From Gemmatimonadota bacterium (GTDB lineage Bacteria; Gemmatimonadota; Gemmatimonadetes; Longimicrobiales; Gaopeijiaceae), in contig VXQO01000079.1 of NCBI GenBank assembly GCA_009838975.1, positions 1-64,000 of the forward strand: a stretch of 64,000 bases of DNA. Direction: 5' to 3'. Positions 7,718-60,271 of the stretch are shown in pieces. Within the stretch, counting starts at the first letter, position 1. The number at the start of each line of letters is the position of its first letter. The translations under genes and the position numbers were made by a program. Under the pieces are notes generated by a model. It did no database searches. It was not told the DNA's origin and saw only the letters and a list, made by a program, of their open reading frames with translations.

Positions 7718-7856
7718 TCGGATTCTCCCTGCGTGCGTTCGTGCGCCTACTGCTGGACGATAGCGACCCCGCGTCGCCAGGGGTTTGCCCGGAGCACCCG
7801 CCACGCCCAAGATGGACGCAGGCCGGAACGCTGATTTCAACGAAGGGAACGGAGCC

Positions 7857-10205
7857 ATGAAGACGCGCTGGATCGGATGCATTTCAAGCCTCGTGGTGAT
7901 GGCGGCGGTCACTCCCGCAGGCGCGCAGGATGTGGACTACCATCGCGCGGAGATGCTGCTCGGGTGGCATACGTCGCCCTTGATATCCGGCACACCAGTG
8001 ACCCCCAACTGGATCAACGATACGGACCGGTTCTGGTACCGCAACAACAGCGGTTCCGGCCACGAGTTCACCTTCGTCGACCCGGCGGCCAATGTGAAGC
8101 GCCCGTTCTTCGACCACGCGCGGCTCGCGGCGGCGCTGTCGGTGGCTGCGGACACGAGCTACGTGCCCCGGAAACTGCCGTTCGACGACTTCGAGTTCGT
8201 GGACGGCGACGAGGGGCGGATCGCGTTCGAAACCGGGGCGCGGCGATTCGAGTGCGATCTGGGCGAATACATGTGCCAGGTGGGCGACACACTGCCCGAC
8301 GACACGCCTTTTGTCGAGTCTCCCGACGAGCGCTGGGAGGCGTTCGTCATGGACCACAACCTCTACATCCGCCCGGCGGCCGGCGGCGACACCATTCAGC
8401 TGACGACGGACGGACAGGAGTTCAACGGCTACGGGCTGGCGTACCCGCGTCCCAACGACATCAGGAACAACCGGGTGCGGCGGCCGGACGTCTACTGGTC
8501 GCCGGACTCGCGCAAGGTTCTGGTCCAGCGAATAGACCAAAGGGACGTGGAACACCATCACTACGTGTCGTACACGCCGCAGCGCACCGTGCACTACTCC
8601 CAGCCATATGCGCTCCCGGGGGACTCGATCGTGCCGCTGCCGGCATTCCACATCCTGGACGTGGGCGAGACTCTGACCGCGGCCGCGGGGGACGAATCCG
8701 ACGGCGACGCGCGCCCCCTCCCCGCCGTCGGCAACATCCGCGTGGTCCTCGAGCCCCGTCCCAACCGGCTCTACCTGGGCGGCTCGCAGGTGGACTCGCT
8801 GTGGTCGGCCGACTCTCGCTTCGCCTACATGCACTGGGAGACCCGCGCATCGAAGAGCAACCACCTGGCGGAGGTGGACGCGGCCACCGGAGACTTCCGC
8901 ATCATCGCGGGCGACAGTTCGCGCACCTGGGTCGAGACCGCACAGCGCAACCCGACCTCGTGGTTCGTGTCGGAGACCACCGACGACGCCTTCTGGTGGT
9001 CCGAGCGCGACGGCTGGGCCCACATCTGGCGCTTCTCGAAGGACGGGACGGTGAAGAACCAGGTCACCAGCGGACCGTGGGCGGTCGGCGCGATCTGGCA
9101 CGTCGACGAGGCCAACCGGCGGCTCTACTTCACGGCGTATGGCCGCGAGGACGGGATTCCCTACTACGGCCGCCTCTACCGGGTCGGCTACGACGGCGGC
9201 GGCCTAACCGTGATCGCGGGAGAGGTGGGCAACCACGCGGTCAACGTGTCGCCCAGCGGCAGCTTCGTGGTCGACACCTGGTCCACGATCGGCGACCCGC
9301 CGGTGACGGCCCTGCGCAACCTCGCGACCGGCAACGTCATCCGCACCCTGGAGGAAGCCGACATCTCGCGTCTGGAAGAGGTCGGGTGGCGCGCCCCGGA
9401 GGTCTTTTCGGTGAAGGCGCGCGACGGCGTCACCGACATCCACGGCCTCATATACTTCCCCGACGACCTCGACGAGTCGGGCAGCTACCCCGTCATCGAC
9501 CACATCTACCCGGGTCCGCAGGTGGGAAGCGTGGGCTCGTGGACCTTCAAGTCCGGTGGCGAAAACTTTTCGCTGGCGAAGCTGGGGTTTGTGGTGATTC
9601 AGCTCGACCACATGGGCACGCCCCACCGCTCCAAGGCGTTTCACGACATCTATTACGGGGACTTCAACGATAACGGCCTTCCCGATCACGTCACCGCGAT
9701 CAAGCAGTTGGCCGCGCGCTACCCGTTCATGGATCTGGACAGGGTAGGCATCTACGGGCATTCCGGAGGCGGTTTCGCGTCCACCGACGCCATGGTGCGC
9801 TTCCCGGACTTCTTCAAGGTGGCCGTCTCGGGGGCGGGCAACCACGACAACGCCAGCTACAACATCTACTGGGCCGAGAAGTACCAGGGGCTGCTCGTGG
9901 CCGACTCCGCCACCGGCACCACCAACTTCACCGACGAAGCCAACAAGACCCACGTCGCCAACCTGAAGGGCAAGCTTTTGCTGATGCACGGCGATATGGA
10001 CGACAACGTGCACCCCGCGATGACCGTCCAGCTGATCGACGAACTGACCAAGGCGAACAAGGACTACGACCTGGTGTGGGCGCCGGACCGCGCGCACGGG
10101 CTGAACGAGCCGTACTTCATCCGTCAGAGGTGGGACTACTTCGTGGAACACCTGCTGGGGGCCGAGCCGCCGAAGGAGTACGAGATCACGCGCCCTGTAA
10201 ACTAG
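7857..10205 (+). CDS. secreted S9 peptidase, dipeptidyl-peptidase IV type
   Basis: The 782-aa product begins at ATG 7857, preceded by GAAGGGAACGGAG, and opens with a clean signal peptide (MKTRWIGCISSLVV..., cut near AGAQD). The first 500 residues look like the DPP-IV propeller and the rest is an alpha/beta-hydrolase. Catalytic residues are visible in GIYGHSGGGF (Ser636), HGDMDDNVH (Asp715/716) and DRAHGL (His747). The expected role is release of dipeptides from peptides in the periplasm or outside the cell. It is divergent from the CehA-type gene with 139 bases between the starts. Its stop codon lies inside a perfect inverted repeat (10196-10213) that begins the TACA/TGTA motif cluster in front of blaI. 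Confidence 0.9.
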   Translation: MKTRWIGCISSLVVMAAVTPAGAQDVDYHRAEMLLGWHTSPLISGTPVTPNWINDTDRFWYRNNSGSGHEFTFVDPAANVKRPFFDHARLAAALSVAADTSYVPRKLPFDDFEFVDGDEGRIAFETGARRFECDLGEYMCQVGDTLPDDTPFVESPDERWEAFVMDHNLYIRPAAGGDTIQLTTDGQEFNGYGLAYPRPNDIRNNRVRRPDVYWSPDSRKVLVQRIDQRDVEHHHYVSYTPQRTVHYSQPYALPGDSIVPLPAFHILDVGETLTAAAGDESDGDARPLPAVGNIRVVLEPRPNRLYLGGSQVDSLWSADSRFAYMHWETRASKSNHLAEVDAATGDFRIIAGDSSRTWVETAQRNPTSWFVSETTDDAFWWSERDGWAHIWRFSKDGTVKNQVTSGPWAVGAIWHVDEANRRLYFTAYGREDGIPYYGRLYRVGYDGGGLTVIAGEVGNHAVNVSPSGSFVVDTWSTIGDPPVTALRNLATGNVIRTLEEADISRLEEVGWRAPEVFSVKARDGVTDIHGLIYFPDDLDESGSYPVIDHIYPGPQVGSVGSWTFKSGGENFSLAKLGFVVIQLDHMGTPHRSKAFHDIYYGDFNDNGLPDHVTAIKQLAARYPFMDLDRVGIYGHSGGGFASTDAMVRFPDFFKVAVSGAGNHDNASYNIYWAEKYQGLLVADSATGTTNFTDEANKTHVANLKGKLLLMHGDMDDNVHPAMTVQLIDELTKANKDYDLVWAPDRAHGLNEPYFIRQRWDYFVEHLLGAEPPKEYEITRPVN

Positions 10206-10235
10206 AGTTTACATGATGACAACCAGAGATTACAT
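10196..10235. promoter_or_regulatory. TACA/TGTA motif cluster, candidate BlaI-type operator
   Basis: A perfect 8-base inverted repeat, TGTAAACT-AG-AGTTTACA, lies at 10196-10213. A further ATTACAT follows, so TTACAT occurs at 10209-10214 and 10230-10235, 21 bases (two helical turns) apart. Operators of BlaI/MecI repressors are known to be built on TACA/TGTA motifs, and a BlaI-family gene begins 180 bases downstream. The binding itself is inferred. The repeat overlaps the stop codon of the upstream peptidase gene, and a role in its transcript end cannot be excluded. Confidence 0.45.
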
Positions 10236-10287
10236 GTCAGCGCGTTGCGCTCTGGTGGTCCGCCGACGGAGTGTCCTAATCAATTAG

Positions 10288-10299
10288 TTGACATATGGA
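10288..10299 (+). promoter_or_regulatory. -35-like TTGACA overlapping a BlaI-like palindrome
   Basis: TTGACA at 10288-10293 is a perfect -35 hexamer and overlaps GACATATGGA (10290-10299), which matches 8 of 10 bases of the TACATATGTA core known from BlaI operators. No good -10 box stands 16-18 bases downstream, so the promoter is incomplete by eye. The placement suits autoregulation of the blaI-M56 pair. Confidence 0.4.
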
Positions 10300-10416
10300 A
10301 CAAATCGCCCCAGCCTCTACTAACACTATAGGAGCTGGGGCGCGGGTGCCCTTCGGCGGTCGGCCGAAAGTCACGCGTTGCGAACCCCAAAGGAGCGGGC
10401 CGGCGCCCGCAGGGAG

Positions 10417-10800
10417 ATGGCAGTGGAGAGAGCACTGACCGCGCGGGAGATGGACGTCATGTCCGTGCTGTGGGATCTGGGCTCGGCGACGGTCGCCGAG
10501 GTCAACGAGCGGCTGGAGGACGACCTCGCCTACAACACCGTCCTGACCATCCTCCGGATCCTGGAGTCAAAGGGGCTCGTGGGCTACACCAAGGACGGCA
10601 GGGCCCACCGCTACCATCCTCTCCTCGGACGTGAGGAGGCCGGGAGCTCCGTGCTCGGCCGCTTGCGCGACAAGGTGTTCTCCGGTTCCGCGGAGCTCCT
10701 CGTGGCCCAGCTCGTATCCGATGAACAGCTGTCACCGGCCGCAGTGCGGAGGCTCCGCAAGTTGCTGGACCAGCGCCTCGAGGGGGAGAAGGAACAATGA
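10417..10800 (+). CDS. BlaI/MecI/CopY-family transcriptional repressor
   Basis: The 127-aa product is a winged-helix repressor. The family signature is clear: LTAREMDVMSVLWDLG, then TVAEVNERL, then YNTVLTILRILESKGLV as the recognition helix region, then a C-terminal dimerisation and cleavage region. The start is uncertain: AGGGAG directly abuts ATG 10417, while an in-frame GTG at 10423 has ideal 6-base spacing. A TTG at 10378 is also in frame. The stop overlaps the start of the M56 gene in ATGA, so the two are translationally coupled. Family members are inactivated by proteolysis triggered by their M56 partner. TACA/TGTA motifs upstream suggest autoregulation. Confidence 0.92.
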   Translation: MAVERALTAREMDVMSVLWDLGSATVAEVNERLEDDLAYNTVLTILRILESKGLVGYTKDGRAHRYHPLLGREEAGSSVLGRLRDKVFSGSAELLVAQLVSDEQLSPAAVRRLRKLLDQRLEGEKEQ

Positions 10801-12731
10801 TCGCTGCGTGGATGCTCTGGTCGGTCGGAGCAGGTCTGATGTTTCTGGTCGCGGGGCTGGCCGCCGAGCGACTGCTCAAGGGGGGCCGCCGCTGGGTGTG
10901 GCTTGCCGCCGGGATCGGCACGGTCGCGTTGCCCGCGATCCGCCTGCTGACGACCTCCCCGCCCTCGGCGGGAGGCGCGCCGCCGGCGGTGCCGATTCTG
11001 CTGGACCCGCTGGCCGTGACGGTGGCGCGGGATTCCGCGCTGCATTCGCTCGACGACCTCCTGCTCCTCGGGTGGGTGGTGCTGTCGGCGCTCCTCCTGG
11101 TCGGGGCCCTCATCGGTGGCGCGCGCTTCATGCGGCGTCGCGCGTCGTGGGAACCGGGTACGCTCCTGGGGCGTGGCGTCCTCTGGTCGCGCGTCACCGG
11201 CCCCGCGGTGGTGGGGCTGTTCCGCTCCCGTGTCGTTCTGCCCAGCTGGGTTCGGGGCGCGGGCGCCGAGCGGCAGGAGTTGATCCTCGCCCACGAAGAG
11301 GAGCACCTTCGCGCACGCGACGTGCAGCTGCGGTTTGCTTGCGGCGCGCTTCTGCTCGCTTTCCCCTGGAACCCCGCGCTGTGGCTCCAGTACCGCCGCC
11401 TGAACCTGGCGATCGAGCTGGACTGCGACCGCCGCGTGATGAACCGGTTGCCGGAGCATCGCCGCCTCTACGGTGACCTCCTGCTCAGGGTGGGGTCTGG
11501 CCACGGCGCCCTCCCCGGTCTCGCGGTCGCGGCGCTCGCGGAGCAGCCGTCCCTGCTGGAGCGGCGCATCCGACAGCTGCTGAAAAAGGCCCCCGAGGTG
11601 AAGATGGCGCAGGCGGCGTTCCTGGTCTTCGGTGCGCTCGTGGTGGTGGGCGTGGCACTGTCGATCCCGGGGATCACGGGGGAGGGGCCGGCGGGGCTGG
11701 ACGGGTCGGAAGAGAGCGAGGCAGGCGTGGCGGATCTGTCCGCAGGTCCGAGGTTCACGCCCTACACGGTTGCGCCGGACCGCATCAACGACGCCGAGAT
11801 CCTGAGGGCGCTGGAGCAGGAGTATCCGCCGCTTCTCCGCGACGCCGGCATCGGAGGAACCGTGCACGTGTGGTTCTTCATCGACGAGCGGGGAGTGGTG
11901 AGGAATCAGTTCGTGCAGGAGAGCTCCGGGCACCAGGCGCTGGATCAGGCTGCCCTGCGCGTGGCGCCGATATTCAGGTTCACACCGGCGCTCAACCGCG
12001 ACCGGGCCGTGCCGGTGTGGGTGACGTTCCCGATCACTTTCGGAACCCGGGACGCTGGTGAAGAAGCGGCCCAGAGCGAGACGGATGCCACGGAGGCCCA
12101 GCTCCAGGACGCGTTGGAGAGGGCAACGCGCGTGATCGAGGCGCGCCTGGCCGCCGGCGAAGGCGAAGATGGCGATGCGGGAGAGGCAGGAGAGGTGGAC
12201 ATTTCGGCGAGCCCGGCGTTCACCCCGTACACGACCGCACCCCGACGCACGAACGACCAGGAAGTCGTCAGGGCGTTGGAAAGGGAGTACCCGCCCCTGC
12301 TTCGAGACGCCGGGATCGGCGGCACGGTGCAAGTGTGGTTCTTCATCGACGAGGAGGGGGTGGTGAGAAACCAGAGGGTTCACACGAGTTCAGGCCACGG
12401 AGCCCTGGACGAGGCTGCCCTGCGCGTGGCGCCGGTCTTAAGGTTCACCCCGGCGTTGAACCAGGGCGAGTCCGTGCCCGTGTGGGTGGCGTTCCCGATC
12501 ACGTTCGGAACCACGCCCGGGGCACAGGGTGCCGGTGGAGAAGCGGCGGAGAGCGAGGCCGACGCCAACGAGGCCCGAGCGGAGTCGGGTTGGAGACCCG
12601 GCTTCCGGTATTCGAGGGGAGAGGGCGCCTACGTCCTGAGGCCGTCACCCACATCGGACCTGAAGTGTTCATTGCCGCGTGACGGGGGAACCGTCCGTTG
12701 CCGGGTCGTCGCTACTGGCCCAGCCGAATAG
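10797..12731 (+). CDS. M56 (BlaR1-type) membrane metallopeptidase with two TonB C-terminal domains
   Basis: The 644-aa sensor protease is expected to signal to the BlaI-like repressor encoded just upstream. The N-terminal third has several hydrophobic segments and the zinc site HEEEH (His166-His170). After a membrane segment near residues 275-290 come two TonB C-terminal domains, about 319-416 and 474-571, joined by an acidic linker. The two copies are 77/98 identical by my alignment, with a DNA period of 465 bases, so the duplication looks recent. The tail after 571 contains two Cys residues (DLKCSLPRDGGTVRCR). M56 proteins ending in a TonB domain are known from other phyla, but two near-identical copies are less usual. 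TonB domains could contact outer-membrane receptors or cell wall; the stimulus is unknown. Confidence 0.88.
   Translation: MIAAWMLWSVGAGLMFLVAGLAAERLLKGGRRWVWLAAGIGTVALPAIRLLTTSPPSAGGAPPAVPILLDPLAVTVARDSALHSLDDLLLLGWVVLSALLLVGALIGGARFMRRRASWEPGTLLGRGVLWSRVTGPAVVGLFRSRVVLPSWVRGAGAERQELILAHEEEHLRARDVQLRFACGALLLAFPWNPALWLQYRRLNLAIELDCDRRVMNRLPEHRRLYGDLLLRVGSGHGALPGLAVAALAEQPSLLERRIRQLLKKAPEVKMAQAAFLVFGALVVVGVALSIPGITGEGPAGLDGSEESEAGVADLSAGPRFTPYTVAPDRINDAEILRALEQEYPPLLRDAGIGGTVHVWFFIDERGVVRNQFVQESSGHQALDQAALRVAPIFRFTPALNRDRAVPVWVTFPITFGTRDAGEEAAQSETDATEAQLQDALERATRVIEARLAAGEGEDGDAGEAGEVDISASPAFTPYTTAPRRTNDQEVVRALEREYPPLLRDAGIGGTVQVWFFIDEEGVVRNQRVHTSSGHGALDEAALRVAPVLRFTPALNQGESVPVWVAFPITFGTTPGAQGAGGEAAESEADANEARAESGWRPGFRYSRGEGAYVLRPSPTSDLKCSLPRDGGTVRCRVVATGPAE
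11750..12510 (+). repeat. tandem in-gene duplication, 465-base period
   Basis: Two copies of a roughly 295-base segment coding for the TonB C-terminal domain, at about 11750-12043 and 12215-12510, lie in the same frame of the M56 gene. The encoded 98-residue blocks differ at 21 positions. Both encode YPPLLRDAGIGGTV and RFTPALN. Confidence 0.85.
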
Positions 12732-53150: not shown

Positions 53151-53200
53151 ACAATGTAAGGATGACATTACATAATGTCATGTAAACTAGACATTCCTTA
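53151..53200. promoter_or_regulatory. AT-rich palindrome cluster with TACA/TGTA motifs before def
   Basis: Between yajC and def lies a perfect inverted repeat, ATGACATTA-CA-TAATGTCAT (53162-53181). ATGTAA, TTACAT and ATGTAA occur at 53154, 53168 and 53180 in alternating orientation, and TAAGGATG and CATTCCTTA flank the whole. TGTAAACTAGA at 53181-53191 is identical to 10196-10206 near the blaI locus. It is a strong candidate operator, possibly for the BlaI-like repressor. Confidence 0.45.
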
Positions 53201-53212
53201 GCACTCCGATAC

Positions 53213-53731
53213 GTGGCACTTCTGGACATCGAGGTCCTGGGCGCCAGGATCCTGCGCGAGGAGGCGGCGCCTGTCGAGGCGGTCGATGACGACGTGCGGC
53301 GTCTCGCGCGTGACATGTTCGACACCATGTATCACGCCGAAGGGATCGGTCTGGCCGGGCCGCAGGTGGGCGTATCCAGGCGCATCCTGGTTGTCGACGT
53401 CAAGAACGACGACGAGAGCCGCCACGTCCACGCGCTGGTCAACCCGGTAGTCGTCGAAGTCAGCAGGGAGCAGGACAAGGCCAGCGAGGGGTGTCTGAGC
53501 ATTCCGGGACTCGAGGAAAACGTCACCCGCCCGGTGCGCGTGACGGTAGAGGCGCTGTCGCTGGACGGAGATCCCGTGCGCATCGAGGCCGATGGGCTGC
53601 TCGCGCGGGCTCTCCAGCACGAAGTGGATCACCTGGACGGCGTCCTCTTCATCGACCGGCTGTCGCCGCTGAAGCGGGGGATCCTCCTCAGGAAGTGGCG
53701 AAGGAACCAGCGCACCTCGGAGAGGGGGTGA
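53213..53731 (+). CDS. def: peptide deformylase
   Basis: The 172-aa metalloenzyme removes the N-formyl group from new proteins. All three motifs are present: GIGLAGPQVG (44-53, Gly in place of the usual second Ala), EGCLSIPG with metal ligand Cys94, and QHEVDHLDG with His136, Glu137 and His140. GTG start at 53213 just after the palindrome cluster; GTGA overlap with fmt. Confidence 0.96.
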   Translation: MALLDIEVLGARILREEAAPVEAVDDDVRRLARDMFDTMYHAEGIGLAGPQVGVSRRILVVDVKNDDESRHVHALVNPVVVEVSREQDKASEGCLSIPGLEENVTRPVRVTVEALSLDGDPVRIEADGLLARALQHEVDHLDGVLFIDRLSPLKRGILLRKWRRNQRTSERG

Positions 53732-59210: not shown

Positions 59211-59259
59211 CAGCCCATGGACAAACCCCCCGTGGCATTCGAGCGGCGATGCATCCGCG

Positions 59260-59288
59260 TTGGATCGCTACGCACACCCGGATACACT
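59260..59288 (+). promoter_or_regulatory. possible internal promoter before the YbbR gene
   Basis: TTGGAT (59260-59265) and TACACT (59283-59288) are spaced by 17 bases. They match 3 and 4 of 6 consensus positions. The location fits the GTG start at 59312. Confidence 0.35.
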
Positions 59289-59311
59289 GTAATGTCCACG
59301 GGCTGCTGAGC

Positions 59312-60271
59312 GTGTCCGTATCCGGCATCCTCACGCGCAACTGGCGCATCAAGCTCGCGGCCCTGTTTCTGGCCGTTCTCCTGTGGGTGACGATGCGCCT
59401 GAGCGACGACCGCGTGAGCCGGCTGGAGATTCCGGCCGTGCAGGTGCGCGTGGACCAGGTCGCTTCGGACTGGCTCCTCAGGGGCTCGCCGTCGCCTTCG
59501 ACCGTAGGGATGACCGTAACCGGCCCGATGGGGGACCTCTTCCGCGTGGCCATGGCCGAGCCCGTCGTCATCATTCCGGTGGATTCGGTTCCCGGAGAAG
59601 ATCTTGTGCTCGAGCTCGTACCGGACTGGGTGTGGAACGTGGACAGGGGGAGCGTGGTAATCGAGGACTTCGCTCCGAGTTCGGTGCGGCTGCTGTTCGA
59701 GAGATACGAGGACGAGGACATCCCCGTCTCCCTGCGACTGACCGGTCGGCTGTCCGACTCGCTGGCCCTGGTGTCGGAGCCGCGCGCGAACCTGCTCTTC
59801 GCACAGGTGCGTGGGCCCGCATCGGAAATGGACGCACTGGAGACGGTCTTCCTGGTCCCCTTCGACCTGAGCGGCCTCGAAGGATCCGGACAGTTCGATG
59901 TCGTGGTCGACACGGCGGGGCTCGGGGGGCTGGTCGTCAGTCCGATGATGGCGACCGTGACGGTCGAGGTCGCAACGAGGGAGAGCCGGGTGGTGGGACC
60001 GGTACCGGTGGAGTTTGTCGCCGGCGCAGAGGATCTGGTCCTGGAGCCCGATACGGTCAACGTGATGCTGTCCGGAGCGGGCGTGCTTCTCGCCGACTCC
60101 GAAGCGACTGATCTGGTGGCAAGCTTGGCGGGAGATCCGGCGGAGGTGCGGCGCGCGATCGACGAAGTCGGCGAGATCCGCCTTCCCGTGGAGGTGAGCG
60201 GCCTGCCGCGGTTCGTGGATGGTGCCGCCGAACCCGATTCCGTGACGGTGCGGAGAATCGGCCCGCCGTGA
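59312..60271 (+). CDS. YbbR-domain membrane protein (CdaR-like)
   Basis: The product is 319 aa. An N-terminal membrane segment (NWRIKLAALFLAVLLWVTM) is followed by tandem YbbR beta repeats (IPAVQVRVDQVASDW, IPVSLRLTGRLSDS, VGPVPVEFVAGAEDLVLEP). YbbR proteins include CdaR, the partner of the diadenylate cyclase CdaA, but no cyclase gene lies in this window. GTG 59312 gives the usual N-terminus; an ATG at 59249 would add a poorly supported 21 residues and cover the promoter. The stop overlaps tsaD in GTGA. Confidence 0.82.
   Translation: MSVSGILTRNWRIKLAALFLAVLLWVTMRLSDDRVSRLEIPAVQVRVDQVASDWLLRGSPSPSTVGMTVTGPMGDLFRVAMAEPVVIIPVDSVPGEDLVLELVPDWVWNVDRGSVVIEDFAPSSVRLLFERYEDEDIPVSLRLTGRLSDSLALVSEPRANLLFAQVRGPASEMDALETVFLVPFDLSGLEGSGQFDVVVDTAGLGGLVVSPMMATVTVEVATRESRVVGPVPVEFVAGAEDLVLEPDTVNVMLSGAGVLLADSEATDLVASLAGDPAEVRRAIDEVGEIRLPVEVSGLPRFVDGAAEPDSVTVRRIGPP

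Follow-up and report, generated by a model that had tools for sequence, protein, structure and literature searches.

The window analysed here is the whole stretch of 64,000 nucleotides (positions 1–64000 of contig C64 of its own genome, G000), with a GC content of ~68%. The features of the S9 peptidase–blaI–M56 peptidase locus, together with a second copy of the 39-bp element described below, are as follows:

7857–10205, plus strand: S9/DPP-IV-type peptidase gene (Pfam PF00930, PF00326), the last codons and stop codon of which lie inside the 39-bp element
10196–10234, no strand: 39-bp tandem-dyad element (TGTAAACTAGAGTTTACA TGA TGACAACCAGAGATTACA), read directly from the sequence; 30.2 bits and E = 2.4e-6 with profile R1 in its own genome; place conserved in genomes G013 and G015
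10217–10234, no strand: second, degenerate 18-bp dyad of this element, TGACAACCAGAGATTACA, beginning 21 bp after the first and closed by the second TTACAT
10275–10288, plus strand: O1, CCTAATCAATTAGT, likely BlaI operator 1, found by phylogenetic footprinting; its last base is shared with the -35 box
10288–10293, plus strand: TTGACA, the -35 box for blaI-M56, kept in the O1/-35/O2 composite
10311–10316, plus strand: where a -10 box would lie with a 17-bp spacer; CAGCCT matches poorly here, and some relatives match more closely (e.g. TAATAT in locus L029)
10319–10332, plus strand: O2, ACTAACACTATAGG, likely BlaI operator 2, found by phylogenetic footprinting, over the presumed start site
10423–10800, plus strand: blaI (PF03965, 106.8 bits); the GTG start was picked via its ribosome-binding site, and alternative starts are possible
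10797–12731, plus strand: M56 peptidase gene (PF05569) with two TonB_C domains (PF03544 twice); HEEEH is seen in the translation
53155–53193, no strand: second window copy of the 39-bp element (41.6 bits), with a yajC-like gene on one side and a def-like gene on the other, both named from their reading frames

A winged-helix BlaI-family repressor gene (PF03965) adjoins an M56 peptidase gene (PF05569), as expected for BlaI-type autoregulation. BlaI is a regular member of its family; among solved structures, the closest to it in sequence is 2g9w, the BlaI of M. tuberculosis. The domain scan of the locus found no beta-lactamase or penicillin-binding sensor domain. Just upstream of the S9 gene, at 7763–7772, G013 carries ~700 extra bases.

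All motifs named in the initial annotation are present where it put them: TGTAAACTAGAGTTTACA (10196–10213), TTGACA (10288–10293), GACATATGGA (10290–10299) and two copies of TTACAT 21 bases apart (10209 and 10230). TTACAT, from a class of hexamers that the annotation expected to be rare, occurs just four times on the plus strand of the 64-kb window. The 18-bp palindrome, at up to three mismatches, is present a single time, whereas shuffled sequences contain it 0.01 times on average, which puts it far beyond chance. GACATATGGA is not conserved in relatives (it reads GACACGGGAA in locus L010). The inverted repeat TGTAAACT-AG-AGTTTACA and both TTACAT copies are parts of a single 39-bp element, composed of two 18-bp dyads that stand 3 bp apart. 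Absent from that annotation were the second dyad, the overlap of the first dyad with the S9 stop codon (10203–10205), and the dyads O1 and O2, the latter lying beyond its range. The 39-bp consensus of the element is TGTMAWSY-NN-RSWTKACA, followed by NNN and a repeat of the first 18 positions, giving four TGTMAWSY half-sites that alternate in direction at a spacing of about one helical turn; it presumably resembles the consensuses of CRP, TyrR, NtcA and GlnR.

Tandem arrangement is a regular property of the element. At up to two mismatches, the dyad is found at 37 places in its own genome compared with none for the reversed control, and in all 15 own-genome copies that were read the dyads come in pairs repeating every 21 bp, clearly in 14 and weakly in one. 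Pairs of dyads have a gap of 3 bp in 49 cases and gaps of 0–2 or 4–7 bp in at most one case each; at gaps of 8–10 bp there are 27, 6 and 9 pairs at the lowest threshold, which we think are register slips. Profile R1 was built from 13 of the 15 copies (loci L038–L052), leaving out a weak one (L040) and a near-duplicate (L048); the window copy at 53155 entered one of the comparisons behind the consensus but is not among the 13. That copy occupies the same place in G013 and G015, and the remaining loci, out of 23 from the genus, lack it.

With strict filters and E ≤ 1e-4, profile R1 matched all ten genus genomes searched and none of 140 sampled other genomes of the phylum, 20 of which are listed as the same family. 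Across the whole genus, which from the names of its bin series we presume to be sponge-associated, 22 of 23 genomes are rich in the element, with 42 to at least 150 strand-hits each (E ≤ 0.01), and the remaining one, G008, has only two weak strand-hits. In 800 kb of G021, a matrix made from own-genome copies found 47 sites scoring at least 28 bits (the reversed matrix none), from which ~260 copies are extrapolated per 4.47 Mb. The viral_contigs set contained no exact match to a degenerate 39-mer. In a tree of Tgt, a single gene with one long branch (G010), the 22 element-rich genomes form the sister group of G008 (99/95). The simplest reading is that the element was gained after G008 had split off.

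At the S9–blaI junction itself, six of nine genomes compared carry the element (G000, G013, G015, G001, G016 and G019), the copies in G003 and G017 look decayed, and G008 has none; outside this set, G005 and G009 also lack it. All three genomes without the element at the junction keep blaI, and their S9 genes end otherwise, the last S9 codons and stop (...RPVN and stop) of the window being supplied by the 39-bp element.

The half-sites behave as expected for contacts of protein subunits. Among 60 non-redundant copies (what was left of 120 distinct sites once those with at least 31/39 identity had been merged), the two half-sites within a dyad resemble each other no more than they do after shuffling (336 versus 331 ± 8; 315 versus 320 ± 8), although neighbouring positions inside a half-site do correlate. 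Each half-site thus obeys one consensus on its own, which fits protein subunits, while a hairpin would need matching arms; the element therefore fits a protein-binding type of site rather than a hairpin, as judged from sequence comparison. The ten orthologous pairs compared share genomes and are not all independent; both members of each pair were already known as copies, and one pair lies in coding sequence. Across these pairs, changes fell on 17 of 280 positions in half-sites and on 24 of 110 in spacers (p = 2.6e-5), so that half-sites change ~3.5 times less often than spacers between relatives. A hand count in the same alignments, restricted to eight pairs that each represent a different site or clade, gave 10/224 and 17/88 changes, respectively. 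These differences suggest selection on the half-sites.

Of the 47 copies in G021, 38 are intergenic, in DNA of which ~93% is coding according to a simple gene caller. The genes next to the intergenic copies are convergent in nine cases, divergent in seven and codirectional in 22, and because the copies show no promoter bias a classical regulon is not evident. Nor is there any significant preference for gene starts or stops within the gaps: 14 of the 38 copies lie within 15 bp of a stop codon compared with 31% expected from random placement in the same gaps. A stop-codon preference had looked strong in hand-picked loci and disappeared against this random placement. An association of the element with blaI was likewise rejected, since blaI loci had been fetched on purpose and the recurrence of the element there is biased. 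A different 39-bp copy, TGTCAATCACAGTTTCCA-ATT-GGTAATCTGTGATTGACA, is located upstream of another blaI, without S9 context, in G018 (locus L027).

Sites turn over between relatives. G005 and G009, which are 92% identical over 89 kb, share four element sites. At the G005 sites 6244 and 74401, the G009 flanks align and the site is absent, at 74401 as a clean ~80-bp difference with no clear target duplication; conversely, site 83189 of G009 has no counterpart in G005. One copy in G021 (locus L129, about position 8578) is situated within a reading frame and is 39/39 identical in G021, G005 and G009, with diverged flanks; it has three changes in G013.

Mobility accounts for some of the copies. In G010 and G021, part of them lie within a repeat whose ends are inverted (CTAGCAGCCCGTGGACA...TGTCCACGGACTGC), a miniature transposon (MITE) of ~247 bp. 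In the long stretches analysed, all ten pairs of terminal inverted repeats (TIRs) spanning 246–249 bp, from these two genomes, carry the core, and 13 pairs spanning 170–174 bp in the same genomes all lack it; the long MITE has ~68 bp more than the short one, bordered by the 8-bp repeat GCTTCGCT. MITE ends are present in all 23 genus genomes, including G008, and in none of 17 others. As MITEs carry a fraction of the copies, selfish spread may account for part of their number. The strongest competitor of a host function is that the 39-bp copies are what remains of selfish miniature transposons and do nothing for the host, the window copy being a decayed one. The core-bearing long repeats, the clean presence/absence difference between G005 and G009 and the high turnover of sites speak for this reading. 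It does not explain why half-sites are conserved while spacers and flanks change, why short MITEs in the same genomes are devoid of the core, or why G008 has MITE ends without cores. Moreover, G000 contains many cores and just seven matches to MITE ends, so at present MITEs do not carry the majority of copies in the own genome, and 89 of 169 copies have flanks resembling those of no other copy. We regard the remnant reading as unlikely, although it retains appreciable weight. No TIR pair surrounds the window copy at 10196, which does not classify as a MITE.

Elsewhere in the window, a 96-bp TIR-bounded repeat without core extends over 59211–59306 (ends CAGCCCATGGACA and TGTCCACGGGCTGC); it looks like a MITE present/absent difference, because the alignment with G013 breaks exactly there (G000 59211–59313 versus G013 98173–98178). 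Near the def-like gene, the window alignment breaks at 53728/53729, where G013 (contig C73, joined coordinates 92625–92688) has a 64-bp TIR pair.

Three further readings of the element each have very little left to recommend them. As a palindromic, mostly intergenic sequence over or near stop codons in several loci, it could be a hairpin in RNA or DNA, either REP-like or a terminator at gene ends; however, its arms do not covary, its placement relative to stops does not differ significantly from random, no Rfam match was obtained at E ≤ 1 in 9900–10600, and its stems are AT-rich in a genome of 68% GC, all of which makes a hairpin most improbable. REP/BIME and MITE repeats share with the element that they are short, high-copy and mostly intergenic, with a subset bounded by TIRs. 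The element differs from them in half-sites that follow one consensus independently and in that most of its own-genome copies lack repeat flanks.

An operator of the arginine repressor ArgR is suggested by layout, because the canonical Escherichia coli site consists of two 18-bp semi-palindromes with 3 bp between them (PMC6640053), which is the identical spacing, and because the own genome encodes one ArgR. Against this, ArgR occurs across the family (54 of 68 genomes sampled) and the element in one genus only, and the argR-argG locus of the own genome (L219, the sole arg locus checked) has no match (best score -13.9 bits). The ARG box reads TGAAT-N4-ATTCA, from which the half-site of the element differs, and we give the ArgR reading hardly any credence. 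What remains in common with ArgR/AhrC operators is the pair of 18-bp dyads with centres 21 bp apart (PMC6640053); half-site sequence, hundreds of copies, genus restriction and absence from argR-argG set the element apart.

The initial annotation, finally, had interpreted the TTACAT/TGTAAACT cluster as BlaI-type half-sites through which BlaI represses the blaI-M56 operon. The cluster does lie upstream of blaI, and BlaI/MecI use TACA/TGTA motifs (PMC7253601). Yet 10196–10234 reads TGTA-N10-TACA instead of TACA-NN-TGTA. Upstream of 50 distinct blaI genes, the classical TACANNTGTA has no exact match (one in 609 control upstreams), TTACAT is found in six (39 of the 609 controls), so that its conservation before blaI orthologues does not hold, and TGTAAACT-N2-AGTTTACA at up to three mismatches in eight, with many copies elsewhere. 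Genus-wide, dozens to hundreds of element copies lie away from blaI, and the junctions of G008, G005 and G009 lack the cluster while blaI is kept. As a BlaI operator, the cluster is highly implausible. The second half of the claim fared better: BlaI autoregulation is well supported by the phylogenetic footprint, through O1 and O2 and not through the TTACAT/TGTAAACT motifs.

The sequence conserved before blaI is a dyad, NCTA-N6-TAGN, usually in two copies, of which O1 ends in the -35 box TTGACA and O2 starts 43–47 bp further on, past the -10 position. For this comparison, blaI loci were taken from 40 genomes and named records, and 50 of 71 were used after dropping duplicates and upstreams shorter than 120 bp. 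The O1/-35/O2 composite, at up to three mismatches, is present in 35 of these 50 upstreams, whose proteins are 52–100% identical, and nowhere in 800 kb of G021. Exact MCTA-N6-TAGK occurs in 41/50 blaI upstreams compared with 1/609 controls, ACTA-N6-TAGT in 22/50 compared with 0/609, and a single dyad at up to one mismatch in 48/50 compared with 26/609, leaving two of the 50 without a dyad. As the two dyads do not have classical TACA/TGTA half-sites, they would represent a variant operator. On this sequence evidence, autorepression of BlaI through O1 and O2 is very likely. Raw counts of the dyad across the own genome show no enrichment (nine places versus 133 for the reversed pattern), so that a large BlaI regulon is not indicated.

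Several observations accompany the operators. An MCTA-N6-TAGK O1-TTGAC arrangement precedes two other own-genome genes, one lipoprotein-like (L059) and one beta-propeller-like (L060); these promoters of envelope-type genes may be further O1-like sites, which we note as a lead only. By eye, own-genome blaI paralogues have other dyads, namely ACTACCCGGGTAGT (L002), GACAT/ATGTC (L005, L006) and GTTGA-N4-TCAAC (L004/L007), which suggests an operator code split by paralogue. Four records titled Gammaproteobacteria (L159, L160, L162 and L164) encode M56-TonB relatives of 52–55% identity behind the same BlaI composite promoter, and may reflect either mis-binning or transfer. Around O2, at 10307–10343, an imperfect inverted repeat CGCCCCAG...CTGGGGCG was seen by eye; its arms read CCAAC...GTTGG in G001-type relatives, possibly a paired change (also by eye).

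Taken together, we consider it probable that the region combines two separate things, a dispersed protein-site element at 10196–10234 and a blaI-M56 control region at 10275–10332. From the computed elements, with their conservation and independence, and from the conserved operators we infer binding, repression, signalling and the existence of a binder. Most likely, an oligomeric DNA-binding protein that the genus gained after G008 had branched off would sit on the 39-bp element and would act genome-wide, be it in regulation, as a roadblock or in chromosome organisation; its sites may have been spread partly by mobile repeats and then held by selection on the half-sites. Independently, BlaI dimers on O1 (over the -35 box) and O2 (over the start site) would shut their own operon, and the M56 membrane peptidase would sense a signal and remove BlaI; both binding to O1/O2 and release are modelled on the known systems, with BlaR1 as the counterpart of the peptidase.

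BlaI/MecI-BlaR1/MecR1 of Staphylococcus aureus and Bacillus licheniformis likewise have a repressor beside an M56 peptidase, promoter-overlapping dyads and presumed autorepression. Here, in contrast, the operator is ACTA-N6-TAGT instead of TACA-NN-TGTA, two operators flank the promoter 43–47 bp apart, and the M56 protein has TonB_C domains and, in the scan, lacks the sensor domain. The element is also comparable to chromosome-organising site systems such as MatP/matS, in which many short palindromic protein sites are dispersed over a chromosome with no promoter bias. The element differs in being a tandem pair with about ten times more copies and no known binder. In the open-licence literature, as represented by listings and abstracts, we found no paper on either motif in Gemmatimonadota and no text containing TGTAAAN6TTTACA.

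For the BlaI group, a motif match is thereby replaced with a computationally tested candidate operator across Longimicrobiales/Gemmatimonadales, and with the operator defined, BlaI-M56 regulons there become predictable. The surprising part is the dispersed element, a clade-restricted, high-copy DNA element of the protein-binding type. Tentatively, and with somewhat less than even confidence, we propose that the genus gained a genome-wide binding system: an oligomeric protein with a few hundred tandem-dyad sites per chromosome, dispersed with the aid of MITEs and maintained by half-site selection irrespective of promoters. Such a system would organise the nucleoid or serve as a network of global regulation, and neither G008 nor any other sampled genus of the phylum would have it. 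As G008 is a natural genome "without" the element, the origin of such a genome-wide binding network would be open to direct study.
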